From the NCBI GenBank assembly GCA_913062735.1, contig CAJXWI010000156.1, forward strand, positions 1 to 6,407: a stretch of DNA of 6,407 nt, in the 5' to 3' direction. The DNA is from an uncultured Arcobacter sp. GTDB lineage: Bacteria; Campylobacterota; Campylobacteria; Campylobacterales; Arcobacteraceae. Positions 318-6,374 of this stretch are shown piece by piece. Numbering within the stretch: the first letter of the stretch is position 1; every line of letters starts with the position of its first letter. Below the pieces are notes generated by a model. That model searched no databases, was not told the DNA's origin, and saw only the letters and a program-made list of their open reading frames with translations. A program made the translations under genes and the position numbers.

Positions 318-632
318 TTGATTAAAACAGAAGATATTATTAAGATTGCTGGTTATTTTAGCGTAATTGCTCACACTCCTGGACGATTAAGAGTAAGAGT
401 CTCTTCAAAAATTAAAAATGAAAGTTCTTCTATAACCATTAAAGACATAGAAAACATACCCGATAAAATCAAAGGTATCACCAGTATAAAAGTTAAAAAA
501 ATAATTGGTTCCGTAACTATTATATATGATCCTGTTGTTTTTCCTTCTTCTTTATGGGAAGATTTAATAAAAGGTGAGAATCTTGAAGAGATTACTTCTA
601 TGATTAATTCATTAGCTAAGGAGGTTATTTAG
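318..632 (+). CDS. HMA2-like (heavy-metal-associated-like) small protein, first gene of fez-like operon
   Basis: A 104-residue protein with one ferredoxin-like domain of the HMA type. Residues 18-28 (AHTPGRLRVRV) form the 'H-x-TPGR-x-R-x-R' first strand seen in the HMA2-like family. A helix (about 40-52, 'IKDIENIPDKIKGI') and two strands (54-71) follow. It has no cysteine, so the classical CxxC metal site of HMA copper chaperones is absent and metal binding through it is unlikely. The same kind of domain, with HQTPTRARYRF, begins the P-ATPase at the end of this operon. The two may interact or be related by duplication. Fez operons are known to include HMA-type proteins; which named Fez protein this matches is not decided here. 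There is no signal peptide or membrane helix, so it is probably cytoplasmic or peripheral. The start is TTG with a good ribosome site. The stop TAG directly abuts the next gene's start. Confidence 0.8.
   Translation: MIKTEDIIKIAGYFSVIAHTPGRLRVRVSSKIKNESSSITIKDIENIPDKIKGITSIKVKKIIGSVTIIYDPVVFPSSLWEDLIKGENLEEITSMINSLAKEVI
618..625 (+). promoter_or_regulatory. Full-consensus Shine-Dalgarno deciding a TTG start
   Basis: AAGGAGGT, the complete anti-16S complement, lies 7 bases before TTG 633 and inside the 3' end of the preceding gene. It fixes the second operon gene's start at TTG and suggests that strong ribosome recruitment offsets the weak start codon. The next in-frame ATG would cut into helix 1 of the ferritin-like fold. 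Confidence 0.8.
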
Positions 633-1397
633 TTGAAAACAAATACTTTTGAAAAAGAGAGTCCACTTATACAAAATTTGGAAACAAATGAGAATCTAGA
701 AGATATACAAGAAAGTAATGAAACTTCATTACAAGCTGATTTTTCATACCTAGATAAAAAACGTGTAGATTTGAACTTGAGTGAAACAGCACTTTCACAA
801 GTTCTACGAATTGCTGTTTATGATGAAATGCAGGCCTATGAAACGTATAGTGCAATACTTGTCAATTTAGGAGATATTGAACCTTTTTCTAGTATTAAAC
901 AAGCAGAAGCTGTTCATTATTCTGTTTTGATTTCATTGCTTGAAAAGTATGAAATTGATGTACCTCTTAATGACTGGAGCAACAAACTTACTGTGCCTAA
1001 AACATATATAGAATGTTGTGAAGTTGGAGTAGCTACAGAAATAGTAAATATTAAAATGTACGATGATTTACTAAAATATATTCAAGAAGAAGATGTAAAG
1101 GATGTTTTATATCGTCTACAAGCTGCTTCTTATAATAATCACCTTCCTTTATTTAGGAATTGTGTGAAAGAATATTACAATCAAGATACAAGTTCTGCTT
1201 TATTTAATCCTGAAGAAATGATGAGTAAAGCAAGTGAGTATCAAAACCTATTAGAAGATATAGCAACAGGAAACATAGACCAAGATAAAATAACACAATT
1301 ATTAGGGAAAATGAATGTTTCAATGATTTCAGGCGCTGCTCTAGGCGCGGCATCAAGTGCTTTTTTAAGTACGTATTTATATAAAAATGAGGAGTAA
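633..1397 (+). CDS. Ferritin-like four-helix protein with C-terminal membrane anchor
   Basis: A 254-residue protein in three parts. Residues 1-45 are acidic and polar, probably disordered. Residues 50-180 resemble a ferritin-like four-helix domain of the DUF2202 type. Candidate di-iron ligands are E65 in helix 1 (YDEMQAYETY), E92 and H95 in helix 2 (EAVH), E136 in helix 3 (ATEIVN) and H170 in helix 4 (SYNNHLPLF). The glutamate that would complete a canonical helix-4 ExxH is Tyr167, so one site may be altered. Residues 231-250 (MISGAALGAASSAFLSTYLY) form a Gly/Ala-rich hydrophobic segment that looks like a single membrane anchor. Such a protein could oxidise or bind iron at a membrane. Placement in a fez-like operon suggests the ferrosome membrane. 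It starts with TTG directly after the upstream stop, behind a perfect ribosome site. Fold is inferred from the motif spacing; function is an inference. Confidence 0.78.
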   Translation: MKTNTFEKESPLIQNLETNENLEDIQESNETSLQADFSYLDKKRVDLNLSETALSQVLRIAVYDEMQAYETYSAILVNLGDIEPFSSIKQAEAVHYSVLISLLEKYEIDVPLNDWSNKLTVPKTYIECCEVGVATEIVNIKMYDDLLKYIQEEDVKDVLYRLQAASYNNHLPLFRNCVKEYYNQDTSSALFNPEEMMSKASEYQNLLEDIATGNIDQDKITQLLGKMNVSMISGAALGAASSAFLSTYLYKNEE

Positions 1398-1400
1398 GTT

Positions 1401-1559
1401 ATGGCATTACCATTTATATTAGGATTGGCGTTAGGCGCAGGAGCAGTGGTTGCTTTTAATAAAAGCGATAAACTACAAGAAAAAGCATGTAAGGTTGTTG
1501 ATAAATCAAAAGAATTTGCATGTTCATCATTGGAAAAAAGTAAAGAACTTGTAAGCTAA
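1401..1559 (+). CDS. 52-aa Gly-rich membrane microprotein (YtxH-like)
   Basis: ATG 1401 follows GAGGAG (1389-1394) at a 6-base spacing, only 3 bases after the ferritin-like gene's stop. The 52-residue product has a hydrophobic Gly/Ala-rich helix at residues 3-19 (LPFILGLALGAGAVVAF), then a charged amphipathic helix rich in Lys, Glu and Ser with C30 and C41. This layout, one short membrane helix followed by a soluble amphipathic tail, is that of YtxH-like proteins and is shared with the 106-aa protein further on. It could coat or help shape the iron-vesicle membrane. After its TAA the same frame stays open to 1676 with sequence of similar character ('SLEKSKEL' before the stop, 'SSKELE' after), so this may be the front part of a single longer gene cut by a stop codon. 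The coding call is good because of ribosome site, spacing and composition. Confidence 0.75.
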   Translation: MALPFILGLALGAGAVVAFNKSDKLQEKACKVVDKSKEFACSSLEKSKELVS

Positions 1560-1574
1560 GTGAAGAGTAAAATT

Positions 1575-1676
1575 ATGACAAGTTCAAAAGAACTCGAAAA
1601 TGAAACAAGCGAAAATACTTTTTTAGAAGAACCAAAAAAACGCGTGAGAAAAGTTAAAGCTAAGGAAGAAAGTTAA
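1575..1676 (+). CDS. 33-aa charged small ORF; possibly the detached C-terminal part of the preceding gene
   Basis: An ATG at 1575 with AAGAG 7 bases upstream gives 33 residues, beginning MTSSKELENETSE and ending in a basic tail (KKRVRKVKAKEES). A GTG at 1560, directly after the previous stop, would give 38 residues but has no clear ribosome site. The product is wholly hydrophilic, with no membrane helix or recognisable domain. It is in the same frame as the 52-aa gene and separated from it only by TAA 1557-1559. The join reads naturally as one YtxH-like protein: membrane helix, long amphipathic helix, acidic linker, basic tail. Options are a recent nonsense mutation, stop readthrough, or a true separate microprotein. 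Its TAA overlaps the next gene's ATG (TAATG), keeping translational coupling intact, which suggests that translation of this stretch still matters. Confidence 0.5.
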   Translation: MTSSKELENETSENTFLEEPKKRVRKVKAKEES

Positions 1677-2005
1677 TGAAAGAACTGCTAATTAATACGG
1701 GTGATGAAAGAAATGTTTTAGGTCATATAGTTAGCGGTGCAGTTGCATCCGCACTTATTTCTGGAACTATAAATTATAAAAAAGTTATGGAAAAAAAAGT
1801 TAAACCAAACCTTGCTTTAAAAGATACTATTAAAAAAACATCTCAAGGCGCAATTGCTACAGGTGCTGCAATTGCTACTTCTAACTATCTTGGTCAAAAA
1901 GGTGGTTTAATGAAGGCTTTAAGTGCTGTTTCAATAGGAATGGCAGGTATTTATGCTCTTGAGATTTTAGATGAAAAATTTAATGCACAAGACGAGGCAA
2001 AATAA
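1676..2005 (+). CDS. Small Gly/Ala-rich integral membrane protein of fez-like operon (possible MamC-like pattern)
   Basis: A 109-residue protein with about three hydrophobic segments: 15-32 (LGHIVSGAVASALISGTI), 58-72 (GAIATGAAIATSNYLG region) and 78-98 (MKALSAVSIGMAGIYALEIL). They are separated by a lysine-rich stretch (35-55) and followed by an acidic tail. Small Gly/Ala-rich membrane proteins are required along with FezB for ferrosome formation, and this one or the 106-aa protein is the best candidate for that role. By eye, the order 'Lys-rich link, KDTIKKT helix, GAIATGAAIA segment, second Gly/Ala helix, acidic end' also recalls the magnetosome protein MamC/Mms13. That resemblance is remembered, not computed. 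ATG 1676 overlaps the upstream stop and is preceded by AAGGAAG (1662-1668). It could also be a generic glycine-zipper membrane protein. Confidence 0.72.
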   Translation: MKELLINTGDERNVLGHIVSGAVASALISGTINYKKVMEKKVKPNLALKDTIKKTSQGAIATGAAIATSNYLGQKGGLMKALSAVSIGMAGIYALEILDEKFNAQDEAK

Positions 2006-2325
2006 TGCAAAAATATGATAATAATATAGAAAACTCAAGAAATACGAAGAATACACAGATTAATCCATATATTAATCAAAACAATGAAGTACAAAATAAT
2101 AATACTTCAAATGTACAAAATCCTCTTGGTGGTTTTTCTCAAGGTGATTTTGTAAAGGGAGCACTTATTGGTGCCGCAGTTACTTTTCTTTTAACCAATA
2201 AAGGTGCACAAGAAAAAATTATGAATGCAGCAGCAAAAGGTAGTGAACTTTTTCAAGCTGGAATGGAAGAGCTAAAAGAGAGATATGAAGATGCTAGAGC
2301 TCAGATGGACGAATCAGGCGAGTAA
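2005..2325 (+). CDS. YtxH-like protein with Asn-rich N terminus, fez-like operon
   Basis: A 106-residue protein. Residues 1-40 are strongly asparagine-rich (14 Asn) and polar, probably disordered. Residues 48-64 (DFVKGALIGAAVTFLLT) form one Gly/Ala-rich membrane helix. Residues 65-102 form a long charged amphipathic helix ending in an acidic tail. The 'KGALIGAAVTFLLTNKGAQEKI' pattern (split here as KGALIGAAVTFLL and TNKGAQEKI) is typical of YtxH-like proteins, and the 52-aa protein upstream has the same helix-plus-amphipathic-tail architecture. Its likely place is the membrane around the iron compartment, with the amphipathic helix lying on the surface. ATG 2005 overlaps the previous stop (TAATG), with GAGG at 1994-1997 as ribosome site, so the two genes are translationally coupled. 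The specific role is not known. Confidence 0.72.
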   Translation: MQKYDNNIENSRNTKNTQINPYINQNNEVQNNNTSNVQNPLGGFSQGDFVKGALIGAAVTFLLTNKGAQEKIMNAAAKGSELFQAGMEELKERYEDARAQMDESGE

Positions 2326-2331
2326 AATAAA

Positions 2332-4449
2332 ATGAGCAATACATTTAAAAAAGTCCACCAAACACCGACAAGAGCTAGATACCGCTTTAATTTGTTAAAA
2401 GAAGAATTTATTGATGATAATATTTTGTCTGCATATCTTGAAAAGATTAAAGGTGTTAATAGCGTAAGAGTAAATAAAAAAGCATCTTCTATTATTTTTA
2501 ATATAAAAAATACTGAAGTATGTTACGAAATTGAAAGTATTCTAGACAAATTAACCTTAGATGATTTATTAAATGATGGTTCTTCAAATTCATTAAGTAT
2601 TGCGCATATCAGTGAAGAAGCTCCAAGCGTAAAGGGTGTTATTCGTGCTTCTTCTGCATTAATTTCAGAGCGCTTTATTTCAAATGATTTCTTAAAAGCT
2701 TCTATAACGTTGGGAGCAGCTGCTCCTATGTTAATTGATGGAAGTAAAGAGTTATTTACTGAAGGATTAACTTCTAAAGTTTTAGAAAGTGCTGCTGTTG
2801 CAGTATCCGTATTTAGAAAAGATTATTTAGCTGCCAATTCAACCAATGCAATGTTAGAGCTTGGTGAATATATAGAAGAAACCACTGTACATAAAAGTGA
2901 TGATTTATTAAAAGAGTTGTCTAAACCAAATGTAAAAGAAGCTTGGTTACAAACAGAAGAAAATGGAAAAATTGTAGAAAACCTCATTCCAACAGAAAGT
3001 ATACAAATTGGCGATATTATTGTTGTGGGGGCTGGAAGTACTATTCCAATTGATGGCCATATTGTATCGGGAGAAGCATCTGTTAATCAAGTCTCTATGA
3101 CAGGAGAAGCGGAACCTGTTTCTAAAAGCAGAGGAGACAGAGTAATTTCTGGAACGGTTATTGAAGATGGACGTTTAAAAATATGGGCTGAATGTGTTGG
3201 TAATGATACCGCAACACAGCGTATTAAACACTATATTGAGAATTCTTTAAATGAACAAAGCTCTGTACAGTTAAAAGCAACAAAACTTGCAAATAAATTG
3301 GTACCTGTTACCCTTGGATTAGCGGGAGTTTCTTATGTAATTTCAAGTGATTTTGAAAGAGTAGCTTCTGTTTTACAAGCAGATTATTCTTGCGCTTTAA
3401 AACTAGCAACGCCTGTGGCTTTTAAATCAACCATCTCAAAAGCTGGAAATGACGGAATTATGATTAAAGGGGCTAAAGCAGTGGAAGCACTTGGCCTTGC
3501 AGATACATTTATTTTTGATAAAACAGGTACCTTAACATCTGGAGAATTAGAAGTTATGTCTATTGATTCTTATGATAAATCCTGGAGCGAAGACGATATT
3601 CTAAATTTAACTGCAAGTACGGAAGAGCATTATTTTCATCCTGTTGCTGAAGCTGTTGTAAAAGCTGCAAAACAAAAAGGTTTTGTGCATATGCATCATG
3701 AAGAAGTAGAATTTATAGTAGCACATGGTGTAAAAACGGAAGTTAATGGAAAAACAGTTATTATTGGTTCAAGACACTTTTTGGAAGATGATGAAAAAAT
3801 TCCTTTTGCTAAACATAAAAAATCCATTGAAAAATCCTTAGAAGATGGACGTACTTTACTGTATATTTCTTATGATGGGAAATTATTAGGAACGATTGGT
3901 TTATCCGATCATTTAAGACACAATACAAAAGAAGCACTAGAACGTTTAAGAACCTTGGGTGTTAAAAATATTATTATGCTTACAGGGGATACCAAAGAAA
4001 AAGCCGAATTAATTTCTAGTGAATTAGGAATTGATAAGGTATATGCGAGTCTCTTGCCTACAGATAAAGCAAGAATTGTAAAAGAATTAATGCAAGAAGG
4101 TCATACTGTCGCTTTTATTGGTGATGGAATTAATGATGCACCTGCTTTAATTTCTGCTCATGTAGGTATTTCTATGAGTAAGGGTGCTGATATCGCAAAA
4201 GCAACGGCTGATGTTTCTTTATTAAAAGATGATATAGAAGCAGTAGTTGAAGCAAAAGAGTTTGCCAATAAAACAATGAAATTAATTAACAATAATTTTA
4301 ATACAACTGTAGCTGTTAATTCCGTTATTTTAGCAGGGGCAACTTTAGGATTTTTCACTCCTATTGTTACAGCTGTTTTACATAATGGAACAACAATTGC
4401 CTTATTGTTAAATTCAATAAAAGGTATTAAATTAAATAAGGATATTTAG
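2332..4449 (+). CDS. fezB: P1B-6-type metal ATPase, FezB-like (ferrosome iron transporter)
   Basis: A 705-residue P-type ATPase with all core elements: actuator TGE (257-259, SMTGEAEPV), phosphorylation site D396 in DKTGT, HP motif of P1B pumps (H436-P437), TGDT (551-554) and the hinge GDGIND (598-603). The N terminus (1-80) is an HMA2-like domain with HQTPTRARYRF at 9-19 and no CxxC. The membrane helix before the phosphorylation site carries YSCALKLATP (352-361) where Cu and Zn pumps have CPCALGLATP, so only C354 of the Cys pair remains. This divergent motif with the HMA2 domain is what marks the P1B-6 group, whose member FezB builds ferrosomes. Probable function is ATP-driven iron loading of a membrane compartment. 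Other helices lie near 120-136, 322-340, 655-673 and 675-695; the last has HNGTTIALLLNS. It starts 6 bases after the YtxH-like gene and ends the operon. The ATPase class is certain; the Fez assignment is strong but not tested. Confidence 0.85.
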   Translation: MSNTFKKVHQTPTRARYRFNLLKEEFIDDNILSAYLEKIKGVNSVRVNKKASSIIFNIKNTEVCYEIESILDKLTLDDLLNDGSSNSLSIAHISEEAPSVKGVIRASSALISERFISNDFLKASITLGAAAPMLIDGSKELFTEGLTSKVLESAAVAVSVFRKDYLAANSTNAMLELGEYIEETTVHKSDDLLKELSKPNVKEAWLQTEENGKIVENLIPTESIQIGDIIVVGAGSTIPIDGHIVSGEASVNQVSMTGEAEPVSKSRGDRVISGTVIEDGRLKIWAECVGNDTATQRIKHYIENSLNEQSSVQLKATKLANKLVPVTLGLAGVSYVISSDFERVASVLQADYSCALKLATPVAFKSTISKAGNDGIMIKGAKAVEALGLADTFIFDKTGTLTSGELEVMSIDSYDKSWSEDDILNLTASTEEHYFHPVAEAVVKAAKQKGFVHMHHEEVEFIVAHGVKTEVNGKTVIIGSRHFLEDDEKIPFAKHKKSIEKSLEDGRTLLYISYDGKLLGTIGLSDHLRHNTKEALERLRTLGVKNIIMLTGDTKEKAELISSELGIDKVYASLLPTDKARIVKELMQEGHTVAFIGDGINDAPALISAHVGISMSKGADIAKATADVSLLKDDIEAVVEAKEFANKTMKLINNNFNTTVAVNSVILAGATLGFFTPIVTAVLHNGTTIALLLNSIKGIKLNKDI

Positions 4450-4496: not shown

Positions 4497-4516
4497 TCTG
4501 ATAATTATTATCAGAA
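4496..4516. promoter_or_regulatory. Perfect 21-bp palindromic Fur box
   Basis: The core TGATAATTATTATCA (4499-4513) is an exact 7-1-7 Fur consensus. Three further bases on each side (TTC and GAA) continue the symmetry, giving ten paired positions around a single central T at 4506. With a one-base centre it cannot be a hairpin terminator, so it is an operator. It lies 8 bases before the ATG at 4525 and overlaps the ribosome site region (GAAGGA, 4514-4519). It should control the 39-aa and 73-aa genes, and perhaps fur by readthrough. Confidence 0.85.
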
Positions 4517-4524
4517 GGAAAGTT

Positions 4525-4644
4525 ATGCCGATTATTTTACACCTAGCTACTATTTTAACCTTTGCTTTAAGTATTAAAACACTTGAAGGAAGTACAAAAG
4601 TTATGATTAAAAGAAGAAAAAGGAGACAAAAAGATGGGATTTGA
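4525..4644 (+). CDS. 39-aa small hydrophobic-basic protein under a Fur box
   Basis: ATG 4525 follows GAAGGA (4514-4519) at a 5-base spacing, directly behind the perfect Fur palindrome. The 39-residue product has a hydrophobic N-terminal segment (residues 2-17, PIILHLATILTFALSI) and a strongly basic tail with RRKRRQK near the end. It may be a single-span membrane microprotein or a cytoplasmic-face anchor. Its last 11 bases overlap the start of the 73-aa gene in another frame, which suggests translational coupling. I do not recognise a family. It could instead be a translated leader for the next gene. Support comes from position, ribosome site and composition; there is no homology evidence. Confidence 0.55.
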   Translation: MPIILHLATILTFALSIKTLEGSTKVMIKRRKRRQKDGI

Positions 4645-4855
4645 TTTAGAGATTCAAAAAGAAGCTGCCAAAATAGCAATGAGTGCAAGTTTAGGTGCTA
4701 CTGTTGTAACATCAATGTTTATGAAAAATAAATTGGCTAAAAAAACACATATTATTGCAGGTGCTGCTTTCTGTGGTTTTGCTTTATGGCATCATATGTT
4801 ATACCAAAAGAAAAATAAAACAAGTAGTAAAAACAAAGAAAAAATTAAAGCATAA
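4634..4855 (+). CDS. 73-aa two-helix membrane protein, probably Fur-regulated
   Basis: ATG 4634 is preceded by AGGAGA (4621-4626) at a 7-base spacing. The 73 residues contain two probable membrane helices, 12-30 (AKIAMSASLGATVVTSMFM) and 38-57 (around IIAGAAFCGFALWHHMLY), joined by a short basic loop, and a lysine-rich tail (59-73). C47, H53 and H54 near the second helix are potential metal-contacting residues, but this is only a possibility. The small Gly/Ala-containing helices recall the other membrane proteins of the neighbouring operon. It follows a Fur operator and precedes fur, so an iron-related role is likely. No family is recognised. Confidence 0.68.
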   Translation: MGFDLEIQKEAAKIAMSASLGATVVTSMFMKNKLAKKTHIIAGAAFCGFALWHHMLYQKKNKTSSKNKEKIKA

Positions 4856-4922: not shown

Positions 4923-5369
4923 ATGTCAAAACATGACGAAGTAATAGAACAACTAAAATTAATTGTTAAACAAAAAGGTTTAAAATATACAGAACAACGT
5001 GAGATTGTTCTTAGAGTACTGATGAGTGTTGAAGAACATTTAACAGCTGAAGATGTTTATAACCATATTAAATCTTCGTATAAAGAATCTAATATTGGAA
5101 TTGCAACTGTTTATAGAGCACTTTCTTTTCTAGAAGAAGTTAAATTAATTACTTCTATAGCCTTTGGTACTGAGGGTAAAAAATATGAAGCAAATATAAA
5201 AGCACATCATGATCATTTAATTTGTACAGCCTGTGGTAAAATTATTGAATTTTTAGACGATGAAATAGAAAAAAGACAAGACAATATTGCAAAAGTGAAT
5301 AATTTTAAAATTACTTCTCACTCTATGCAACTATATGGTACTTGCGAAGAATGTCAAGCTAAAAACTAA
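4923..5369 (+). CDS. fur: Ferric uptake regulator Fur
   Basis: A 148-residue Fur-family repressor of usual length. The N-terminal winged helix (about 1-85) contains the recognition helix NIGIATVYRALSFLEE (57-72). The dimerisation domain carries HHDHLICTACGK (95-106) and a second Cys pair C141-C144; together C101, C104, C141 and C144 make the structural zinc site. E89, H96 and H98 align with the regulatory iron ligands E81, H88 and H90 of Escherichia coli Fur. Glutamate at 89, where PerR has aspartate, favours Fur over the peroxide sensor. With Fe(II) bound it represses iron acquisition and related genes at sites like that at 4496-4516. The start has AAGG (4913-4916) 6 bases upstream. Its position next to the fez-like operon suggests that it, or a dedicated paralogue, controls it. 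A second Fur elsewhere in the genome cannot be excluded. Confidence 0.9.
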   Translation: MSKHDEVIEQLKLIVKQKGLKYTEQREIVLRVLMSVEEHLTAEDVYNHIKSSYKESNIGIATVYRALSFLEEVKLITSIAFGTEGKKYEANIKAHHDHLICTACGKIIEFLDDEIEKRQDNIAKVNNFKITSHSMQLYGTCEECQAKN

Positions 5370-5903: not shown

Positions 5904-6374
5904 TTATCCTTGTATGTTTCGTATAATTGATCGTAGAGAATAGGGTATGACTTTAATTTCATAATTTTTGTCTTCTAATTCATCTACTTTTATTTGTATA
6001 TGTCTGTTAAAATTTTCAAGTTTTGGATATACCAAATATACTTGCTTAAACTCACTTTGTTTAATTGAGTCAATTGCTGTATTAATATCATCTTCAATTT
6101 TTAAATTTTTAGGATCAATTTGTTTCCATGAGGTATAAATTTTTAAAGGAACAGCATTTTTCTTAAAGATACAAATGGAATCTCCATTATCTACTACCTT
6201 ATTATCTTTATTCATATTTCTTATCTTATTTAATACAAATTCATGAAAAAGTAGATTCTTATCAAAAAACAATTGTAATTTATTGTTTACAAAACAAGTT
6301 GCAATAACTTTTGCCATTGGTAAGAGTTTAGAACTTGCATATATGTGTTTTTTCATTTCTTTGTTTAGTTTCAA
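5904..6374 (-). CDS. Conserved-looking protein of unknown function upstream of fldA
   Basis: I do not recognise this protein. As drawn from TTG 6374 it has 156 residues; ATG at 6354-6356 (minus strand) gives 150 beginning MKKHIYASSK and is at least as likely. Neither start has a strong ribosome site, though AAAGAA precedes both. It is basic, with no signal peptide or membrane helix. The C-terminal half alternates strands and helices ('QVYLVYPKLENFNRHIQIKV', then 'YEIKVIPYSLRSIIR'), suggesting a small alpha/beta fold. Its cysteines, C27 and C68, form no motif. The start overlaps the end of another minus-strand frame (6328-6407). It ends 3 bases before fldA, which implies co-transcription and possibly a role linked to flavodoxin, but this is inference only. 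Confidence 0.6.
   Translation of the reverse strand: MKLNKEMKKHIYASSKLLPMAKVIATCFVNNKLQLFFDKNLLFHEFVLNKIRNMNKDNKVVDNGDSICIFKKNAVPLKIYTSWKQIDPKNLKIEDDINTAIDSIKQSEFKQVYLVYPKLENFNRHIQIKVDELEDKNYEIKVIPYSLRSIIRNIQG

Follow-up and report, generated by a model that had tools for sequence, protein, structure and literature searches.

The subject of this study is a 6,407-nucleotide contig from an uncultured Arcobacter sp. (CAJXWI010000156.1; the whole stretch is referred to below as the window), and in particular a run of closely packed genes that ends in a heavy-metal P-type ATPase. With a probability of about 0.8, the run is a fez operon, a gene set for ferrosomes (iron stores enclosed by a membrane), from an Arcobacteraceae-like member of the Campylobacterota, and a gene for a predicted ferritin-fold protein has been added to it. 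An earlier note on the same DNA had proposed a fez operon from its fit to the published picture, and this is now supported at the sequence level by the placement of the ATPase in a clade marked by an SCA motif, and by a gene order shared with Rhodopseudomonas palustris and Azospirillum. The neighbours of the ATPase support the fez reading because the HMA_2, MamC-like, and YtxH-like proteins match those of clusters in R. palustris XCP and Azospirillum. The ferritin-containing variant, judging from the genomes compared, is spread through the Campylobacterota.

The ATPase and the conserved gene order

Seven plus-strand frames span positions 318–4449, with intergenic gaps of no more than 15 bases (Table 1). 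That they are tightly packed and end in a P1B ATPase, as first described, was confirmed by the frame coordinates and by the match of the last protein to TIGR01525 (490.7 bits; cut-off 346.25), which identifies it as a heavy-metal P-type ATPase. Chance packing was ruled out, because the order of the labelled genes was identical in 121 of 138 compared loci (in 83 of these a FezC-like gene lay inside 1.4 kb, and in 38 none did). These loci comprised 132 that were fetched, together with L053, L024, L020, L044, L001, and the window; surroundings were fetched for 133 genomes with FezB, L053 and L024 being the remaining two, and L245 was omitted, having no intact ATPase frame. Gene 5 was present in all 138 loci, gene 1 in 137, and gene 2, which encodes the ferritin-fold protein, in 130.

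The ATPase begins with an HMA_2-like domain that scored slightly below the cut-off (28.4 bits; cut-off 30), and its fourth transmembrane segment (TM4) carries the sequence DYSCALK, common to homologues in Azospirillum and Vibrio; a CPC motif was not found in TM4, which has Ser-Cys-Ala (SCA) instead. We take Ser-Cys-Ala in TM4 to be a mark of P1B-6 ATPases. Among the best 120 relatives listed, one was 99% identical, two were 84% identical, and the remainder mostly fell at 74–76%; those with names came mostly from Arcobacter and its relatives. The bit scores in six genomes were bimodal, 445–1093 for FezB versus no more than 286 for the other listed P1B ATPases.

Two phylogenetic trees were reconstructed, both by quick searches and with support from the Shimodaira–Hasegawa-like approximate likelihood ratio test (SH-aLRT) only. 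In the first (87 ATPases), 55 rows with the motif, a label that in both trees includes ACA variants as well as SCA, were split from 11 references by a branch with a support of 99, and four extra rows without the motif lay inside the SCA clade. One reference (L096, Shinella) was represented by a wrong frame there and by its annotated frame in the second tree. The second tree (90 rows, 12 having been removed and 15 added) placed all 11 P1B references outside the SCA-type clade, with a support of 97. Within that clade, the window ATPase fell into a group of 20 rows (support 100), consisting of 19 from Campylobacterota and one from a metagenome-assembled genome (MAG) of Gammaproteobacteria (L044), and this group was nested in a larger clade with the ATPase of R. 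palustris XCP; the sister group held rows from Desulfovibrionaceae, Bacillota, and Spirochaetota, along with a few others. The R. palustris of both trees is strain XCP, and neither tree includes an ATPase from a strain known to have been tested for ferrosomes. Two divergent ATPases of the phylum sample (L228 and L229) grouped with those of Azospirillum, Azoarcus, and Pseudothauera. The phylogeny that the earlier note had asked for has thus put the window ATPase outside CopA, ZntA, and CtpC, and inside the SCA-motif P1B-6/FezB-type clade with the R. palustris homologue, to which on tree and motif evidence it belongs. Identity as a Cu, Zn, or Mn exporter was excluded by the SCA motif and by both trees, in which CopA, ZntA, and CtpC stand apart.

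FezB (E ≤ 1e-100) was detected in 135 of 397 sampled Campylobacterota genomes. A genome-wide search gave gene 2 matches in 135 of the 397, and 127 of these genomes were FezB carriers; the two genes lay within 2.5 kb of each other in all 127 genomes having both, and every one of the 123 matches below 1e-9 was in a FezB genome. Among loci from the phylum sample, gene 2 was present in 126 of 134. The co-occurrence statistics (Fisher tests) ignore the relatedness of the genomes. Carriers among the matches listed included Arcobacter cryaerophilus, a Sulfurospirillum MAG, Helicobacter sp. MIT 00-7814, and Campylobacter concisus, with C. rectus, C. mucosalis, and others recognized by protein name. 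Alignment A5 consisted of the window, 32 of 120 listed proteins, and six loci, and alignment A8 of 29 of 54 counted copies. In Arcobacter isolates obtained from chicken meat, the operon was seen on plasmids of 133 kb (L001, 5046–9522, and L002, 4777–9251), the L002 copy lying near TonB-dependent receptors and a Tn3 transposase, and a fez-like cluster was noticed in the enterobacterium Kluyvera cryocrescens (L010).

The predicted ferritin-fold protein

The structure model of the gene 2 product predicts a four-helix bundle of ferritin topology over residues ~51–187, with dimetal-type ligand positions at E65, E92, H95, E136, and H170, including an ExxH motif in helix 2. By its predicted bundle and these positions, the protein belongs to the ferritin-like superfamily. 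The ligand positions correspond when a relative of gene 2 is aligned to MJ0754. Pfam family DUF2202 matched the window protein at 14.5 bits (cut-off 22), and 33 of 39 members of the gene 2 family at E ≤ 0.01. The bundle is still predicted for the C. concisus copy; a Foldseek search with that model returned no match at E ≤ 0.001, the best (0.0018) being MJ0754.

A scan of named genomes, in which 80 loci were kept of at least 591 relatives, gave strong gene 2 matches (E ≤ 7e-41) in five of the 80, not all of which are FezB loci. The five belonged to the L044 MAG, Thauera, Pseudothauera (two loci), and a member of the Methylocystaceae, where the gene is on the other strand; they exclude gene 2 as a Campylobacterota-specific gene. 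Three more loci outside the phylum matched weakly (E 3e-5 to 0.008).

Conservation of the putative metal site follows a divided pattern. All five ligand positions were intact in 53 of 130 copies, and in 55 of the 130, that of C. concisus included, position 92 was R/K, position 95 A/G, and position 170 Y; E136 was retained in 129 and Y143 in 123. One explanation, compatible with a fez operon, is that the protein is no iron enzyme, that its ferritin fold is a scaffold organising the vesicle coat, and that the ligands in copies of the Arcobacteraceae type are remnants. The many substituted copies, the bundle predicted for C. concisus, and the near-constant E136 and Y143 would all suit such a role, but the 53 copies keep the full set of ligand positions, as do all five from outside the phylum (L044 being also among the 53), so that selection seems to hold them there. 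A pure scaffold is considered a doubtful explanation, albeit one to be taken seriously.

Companion proteins and iron regulation

Gene 1 passes the cut-off of PF19991 (Table 1), which bears out the HMA2-like protein proposed earlier, and its start region is the same in a relative (L231). The frames of 52 and 33 residues share one reading frame (1401–1676) and are split by a TAA, while five inspected relatives have a single gene of 74–95 residues at this position; the seven frames of the earlier description stand, with this correction. A claim of several small membrane proteins was borne out in part, in that genes 3 and 5 pass a simple hydropathy threshold and gene 6 does not; the test (window 19, threshold 1.3) is strict, as only three segments of the ATPase pass it. 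Homologues of gene 6 precede FezB in the R. palustris, Azospirillum, and Vibrio loci. The gene 3 and gene 6 labels were inseparable in an iterated search because their profiles merged.

Gene 5 matched the NCBIfam MamC family (NF038051) with an E of 7.4e-5 and 23 bits, below the cut-off of 100. MamC matches were found for 16 of 25 members of the gene 5 family, the best with an E of 7.9e-9, and extended over most of the profile. Control searches at E ≤ 0.01 gave no MamC match among 25 gene 6 proteins or 17 gene 3 proteins, which excludes an effect of composition. Gene 5 appears, then, to bear a distant likeness to MamC, with the window protein itself under the MamC cut-off. The gene 5 alignment (A6) held 20 of 21 copies and five from outside the phylum, L225, in which the gene is fused with gene 6, having been omitted; from the gene 3 alignment (A11), L201, L220, and L256 of 19 copies were omitted and L003 was added.

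The set extends past position 4449 to a FezC-like protein at 4634–4855, which the earlier note had missed. FezC-like proteins occurred in 127 of the 135 FezB genomes versus none of the 262 others, and in 124 of the 127 the gene lay within 2.5 kb of FezB. The window protein scored 17.6 bits (E 0.0055; cut-off 26.7) against PF14358 (DUF4405), and 8 of 19 members matched DUF4405 at E ≤ 0.01, a comparison made at the level of the family. Among homologues, H39 was conserved in 93 of 94 and H53 in all 94. In the available text of PMC10979944, ferrosome FezC is described as a DUF4405-related cytochrome of the heme b kind, with heme binding by a dimer given as a possibility. Frames of 38–48 residues resembling the 39-residue frame of the window were found in six of eight inspected relatives. 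Some FezC-like proteins, located after FezB, are longer, at ~190–210 residues (L129, L259, L260, and L044), and 3 of the 19 FezC-like proteins of alignment A7 carry a SpoIIAA-like domain (PF11964, best E 2.5e-19). In Azospirillum (L003, 5073–5552), the first gene of the cluster appears by eye to encode an HMA domain fused with a tail resembling FezC; it was not among the matches of the FezC-like profile.

Fur-type operators near the operon, another earlier claim, gained support from the phylum sample. The perfect 7-1-7 box at 4499–4513 was the single match in the window, against none in 200 shuffles. The weak site upstream of gene 1 did not by itself rise above chance (three matches in the window at up to three mismatches, versus 1.74 expected). 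The positions of both sites are supported because boxes recur there across the surveyed loci: at up to two mismatches, 39 of 137 loci had a box upstream of gene 1 (shuffle mean 2.65) and 31 of 138 had one downstream of fezB (0.55 shuffled), counts that ignore the relatedness of the loci. Of the 138 loci, 71 had a Fur-family gene within the stretch that was fetched, the first match being upstream in 64 and downstream in 7, where the stretches mostly end ~1.5 kb out. These data suggest that Fur may control the operon, and fez of Clostridioides difficile is under Fur control according to the available text of PMC12574912. C. concisus (L053, 3501–3947) and a locus resembling it (L145, 2138–2584) have a same-strand Fur-family gene just upstream, perhaps a dedicated regulator.

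Table 1. Features of the window, with coordinates on the full 6,407-nucleotide stretch
Feature	Position	Strand	Remarks
Weak Fur-box-like site, TGATAATGATTCTAA	241–255	+	62 bases 5' of gene 1; 2 mismatches to 7-1-7 palindrome
Gene 1, HMA_2 domain protein	318–632	+	104 aa; TTG start; HTPGRLRVRV motif; without Cys; PF19991 30.5 bits, cut-off 30
Gene 2, predicted ferritin-like four-helix bundle with C-terminal Gly-rich tail	633–1397	+	254 aa
Gene 3, small Gly-rich membrane protein	1401–1559	+	52 aa; single longer gene in relatives
Lys-rich frame	1575–1676	+	33 aa; in the reading frame of gene 3, after its TAA
Gene 5, distantly MamC-like	1676–2005	+	109 aa; two hydrophobic segments
Gene 6, YtxH-like Gly-rich protein	2005–2325	+	106 aa; weak PF12732, E 0.69
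FezB-like P1B-6 ATPase	2332–4449	+	705 aa; N-terminal HMA_2-like domain; DYSCALK in TM4
Perfect Fur box, TGATAATTATTATCA	4499–4513	+	
Small frame	4525–4644	+	39 aa; one hydrophobic segment
FezC-like (DUF4405-related) cytochrome candidate	4634–4855	+	73 aa; His39 and His53
Fur-family regulator (fur)	4923–5369	+	148 aa; PF01475 142.1 bits
Long-chain flavodoxin		opposite	Downstream of fur; TIGR01752 199 bits, cut-off 146.75

The fur and flavodoxin genes that had been named as neighbours of the operon were both verified by their family matches (PF01475 and TIGR01752; Table 1). A frame of 156 residues (5904–6374, minus strand) lies directly upstream of the flavodoxin on the same strand. Directly 5' of the operon, a frame at 2–259 resembles by eye the end of a diguanylate cyclase, and the weak Fur-like site falls at its end. 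An Rfam search of the window gave no match, and promoter and terminator scans of it found no clear excess over shuffles.

Interpretation and relation to known systems

A fez operon of this composition could work as follows. When iron is short, Fur would come off its boxes upstream of gene 1 and downstream of fezB, which would allow the set to be expressed. The small glycine-rich proteins (genes 3, 5, and 6) would shape and coat membrane vesicles, into which FezB would move Fe(II) from the cytosol. The gene 2 protein, tethered at the membrane by its glycine-rich tail, would gather Fe(II) beside the pump and probably oxidise or buffer it, while a FezC-like dimer with heme b may pass electrons through the membrane of the vesicle and thereby allow the stored iron to be fixed or released. 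In this scheme we infer the vesicles, iron as the metal, the direction of transport, the membrane attachment and chemistry of the gene 2 protein, the binding of heme, and the regulation by Fur, whereas the homology, the clade of the ATPase, the order of the genes, the predicted fold and its ligand residues, the Fur boxes, and the co-occurrence come from computation. A more far-reaching version can be offered only tentatively, at somewhat less than even odds: Campylobacterota would make ferrosomes in which a ferritin-fold protein held at the membrane works inside a lipid-bounded iron organelle, so that the two main ways in which bacteria store iron come together; in C. concisus and similar carriers the metal site would since have degenerated, leaving a scaffold, and the MamC-like protein would make ferrosomes and magnetosomes distant cousins.

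Alternatively, the genes may encode an exporter complex of the cytoplasmic membrane for iron or another metal, in which FezB expels the metal, there is no organelle, and the gene 2 protein buffers iron in the cytosol and supplies it to the exporter. P1B ATPases are generally exporters, nothing in the sequence itself reveals vesicles, and Fur boxes alone would equally fit iron handling at large. Simple export does not, however, explain the glycine-rich and MamC-like companions, whose order is conserved from R. palustris to the Campylobacterota, and it would be strange for an exporter to be derepressed by Fur when iron is scarce. Moreover, in the 2022 work of Grant et al., fez operons are said to suffice for ferrosomes in other hosts. 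An exporter complex is, on balance, unlikely. A resistance cassette for Co, Ni, Zn, or Cd, with an ATPase that is merely FezB-like, is highly improbable: the protein does exceed the cut-off of the Cd family TIGR01512 (361 bits; cut-off 313.5), and one Arcobacter copy is the plasmid-borne one near a Tn3 transposase and TonB receptors, but it has the SCA and no CPC motif, stands apart from ZntA, CopA, and CtpC in both trees, and is accompanied by Fur boxes and, in 71 of 138 stretches, by Fur-family genes that point to iron.

Several observations weigh against a fez operon with an added ferritin-fold protein. The window's gene 2 and FezC-like proteins both fall short of their Pfam cut-offs, and neither of them, the glycine-rich tail of gene 2 included, has a segment that passes the hydropathy threshold. 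The ligand positions of gene 2 are complete in fewer than half of the copies (53 of 130), and weak matches to it (E 2e-7 to 3e-5) occur in eight genomes without FezB. Of the 135 FezB genomes, 8 lack gene 2 or have a copy that went unrecognised, and outside the phylum strong matches were confined to 5 of the 80 loci (not all of them with FezB), so that fez in general does not depend on it. For three FezC-like genes, FezB is distant or on a different contig, and at two mismatches a Fur box is missing from 98 of 137 upstream regions.

With about a third of sampled Campylobacterota carrying a FezB-type ATPase, ferrosomes can be sought in culturable members, and carriers such as C. concisus and a Helicobacter make the question directly testable in the phylum. 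A dedicated ferritin-fold protein would offer a handle on how ferrosomes load and keep iron, and the likeness to MamC a way to ask whether ferrosomes and magnetosomes share parts. The open literature searched, which leaves most subscription papers outside, held nothing that contradicts an absence of ferrosome work in Campylobacterota and no mention of DUF2202; the available text of PMC12574912 names both ferrosomes and Campylobacter without linking them. Parts of the present finding may already have been published in the founding fez papers.

Compared with the window, the fez sets of C. difficile (fezXAB) and Desulfovibrio magneticus (fezABC) presumably have fewer genes, and no ferritin-like gene is known in either. 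In the FezB tree, ATPases of Bacillota and Desulfovibrionaceae fall in the half opposite to that of the window. The P1B-6 ATPase is shared, and the available text of PMC12574912 and PMC10979944 gives Fur control for C. difficile and a FezC cytochrome for D. magneticus, where the window has Fur boxes and a FezC-like candidate. MJ0754, the DUF2202 family, and the bacterioferritin folds have in common with gene 2 the predicted four-helix bundle, the ExxH of helix 2, and the aligned ligand positions; they differ from it in that gene 2 has a glycine-rich tail and is set in a fez operon. Similarity to MamC, a magnetosome membrane protein, covers most of the profile in the gene 5 family, although the window protein lies far under the cut-off (23 versus 100 bits).

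Two other organisms carry close counterparts of the operon. The R. palustris XCP cluster (L028) encodes, in order, HMA, small glycine-rich (by eye), MamC-like, YtxH-like, and FezB proteins, and its ATPase falls in the clade of the window; it differs in that no ferritin-like gene was found there and in that its ATPase is 40% identical. The small glycine-rich protein gave no match to the profile of the gene 2 tail. Strain XCP is not known to be among those in which ferrosomes have been tested. This arrangement fits the operon of Grant et al., which reportedly has six genes. The cluster of Azospirillum brasilense p3 (L003) encodes HMA2, HMA, hypothetical, MamC-like, YtxH-like, and FezB proteins, with an ATPase 47.5% identical to that of the window, and differs likewise in that no ferritin-like gene was found in it. 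The gene order of the window is thus the frame seen in R. palustris and Azospirillum, with gene 2 added.

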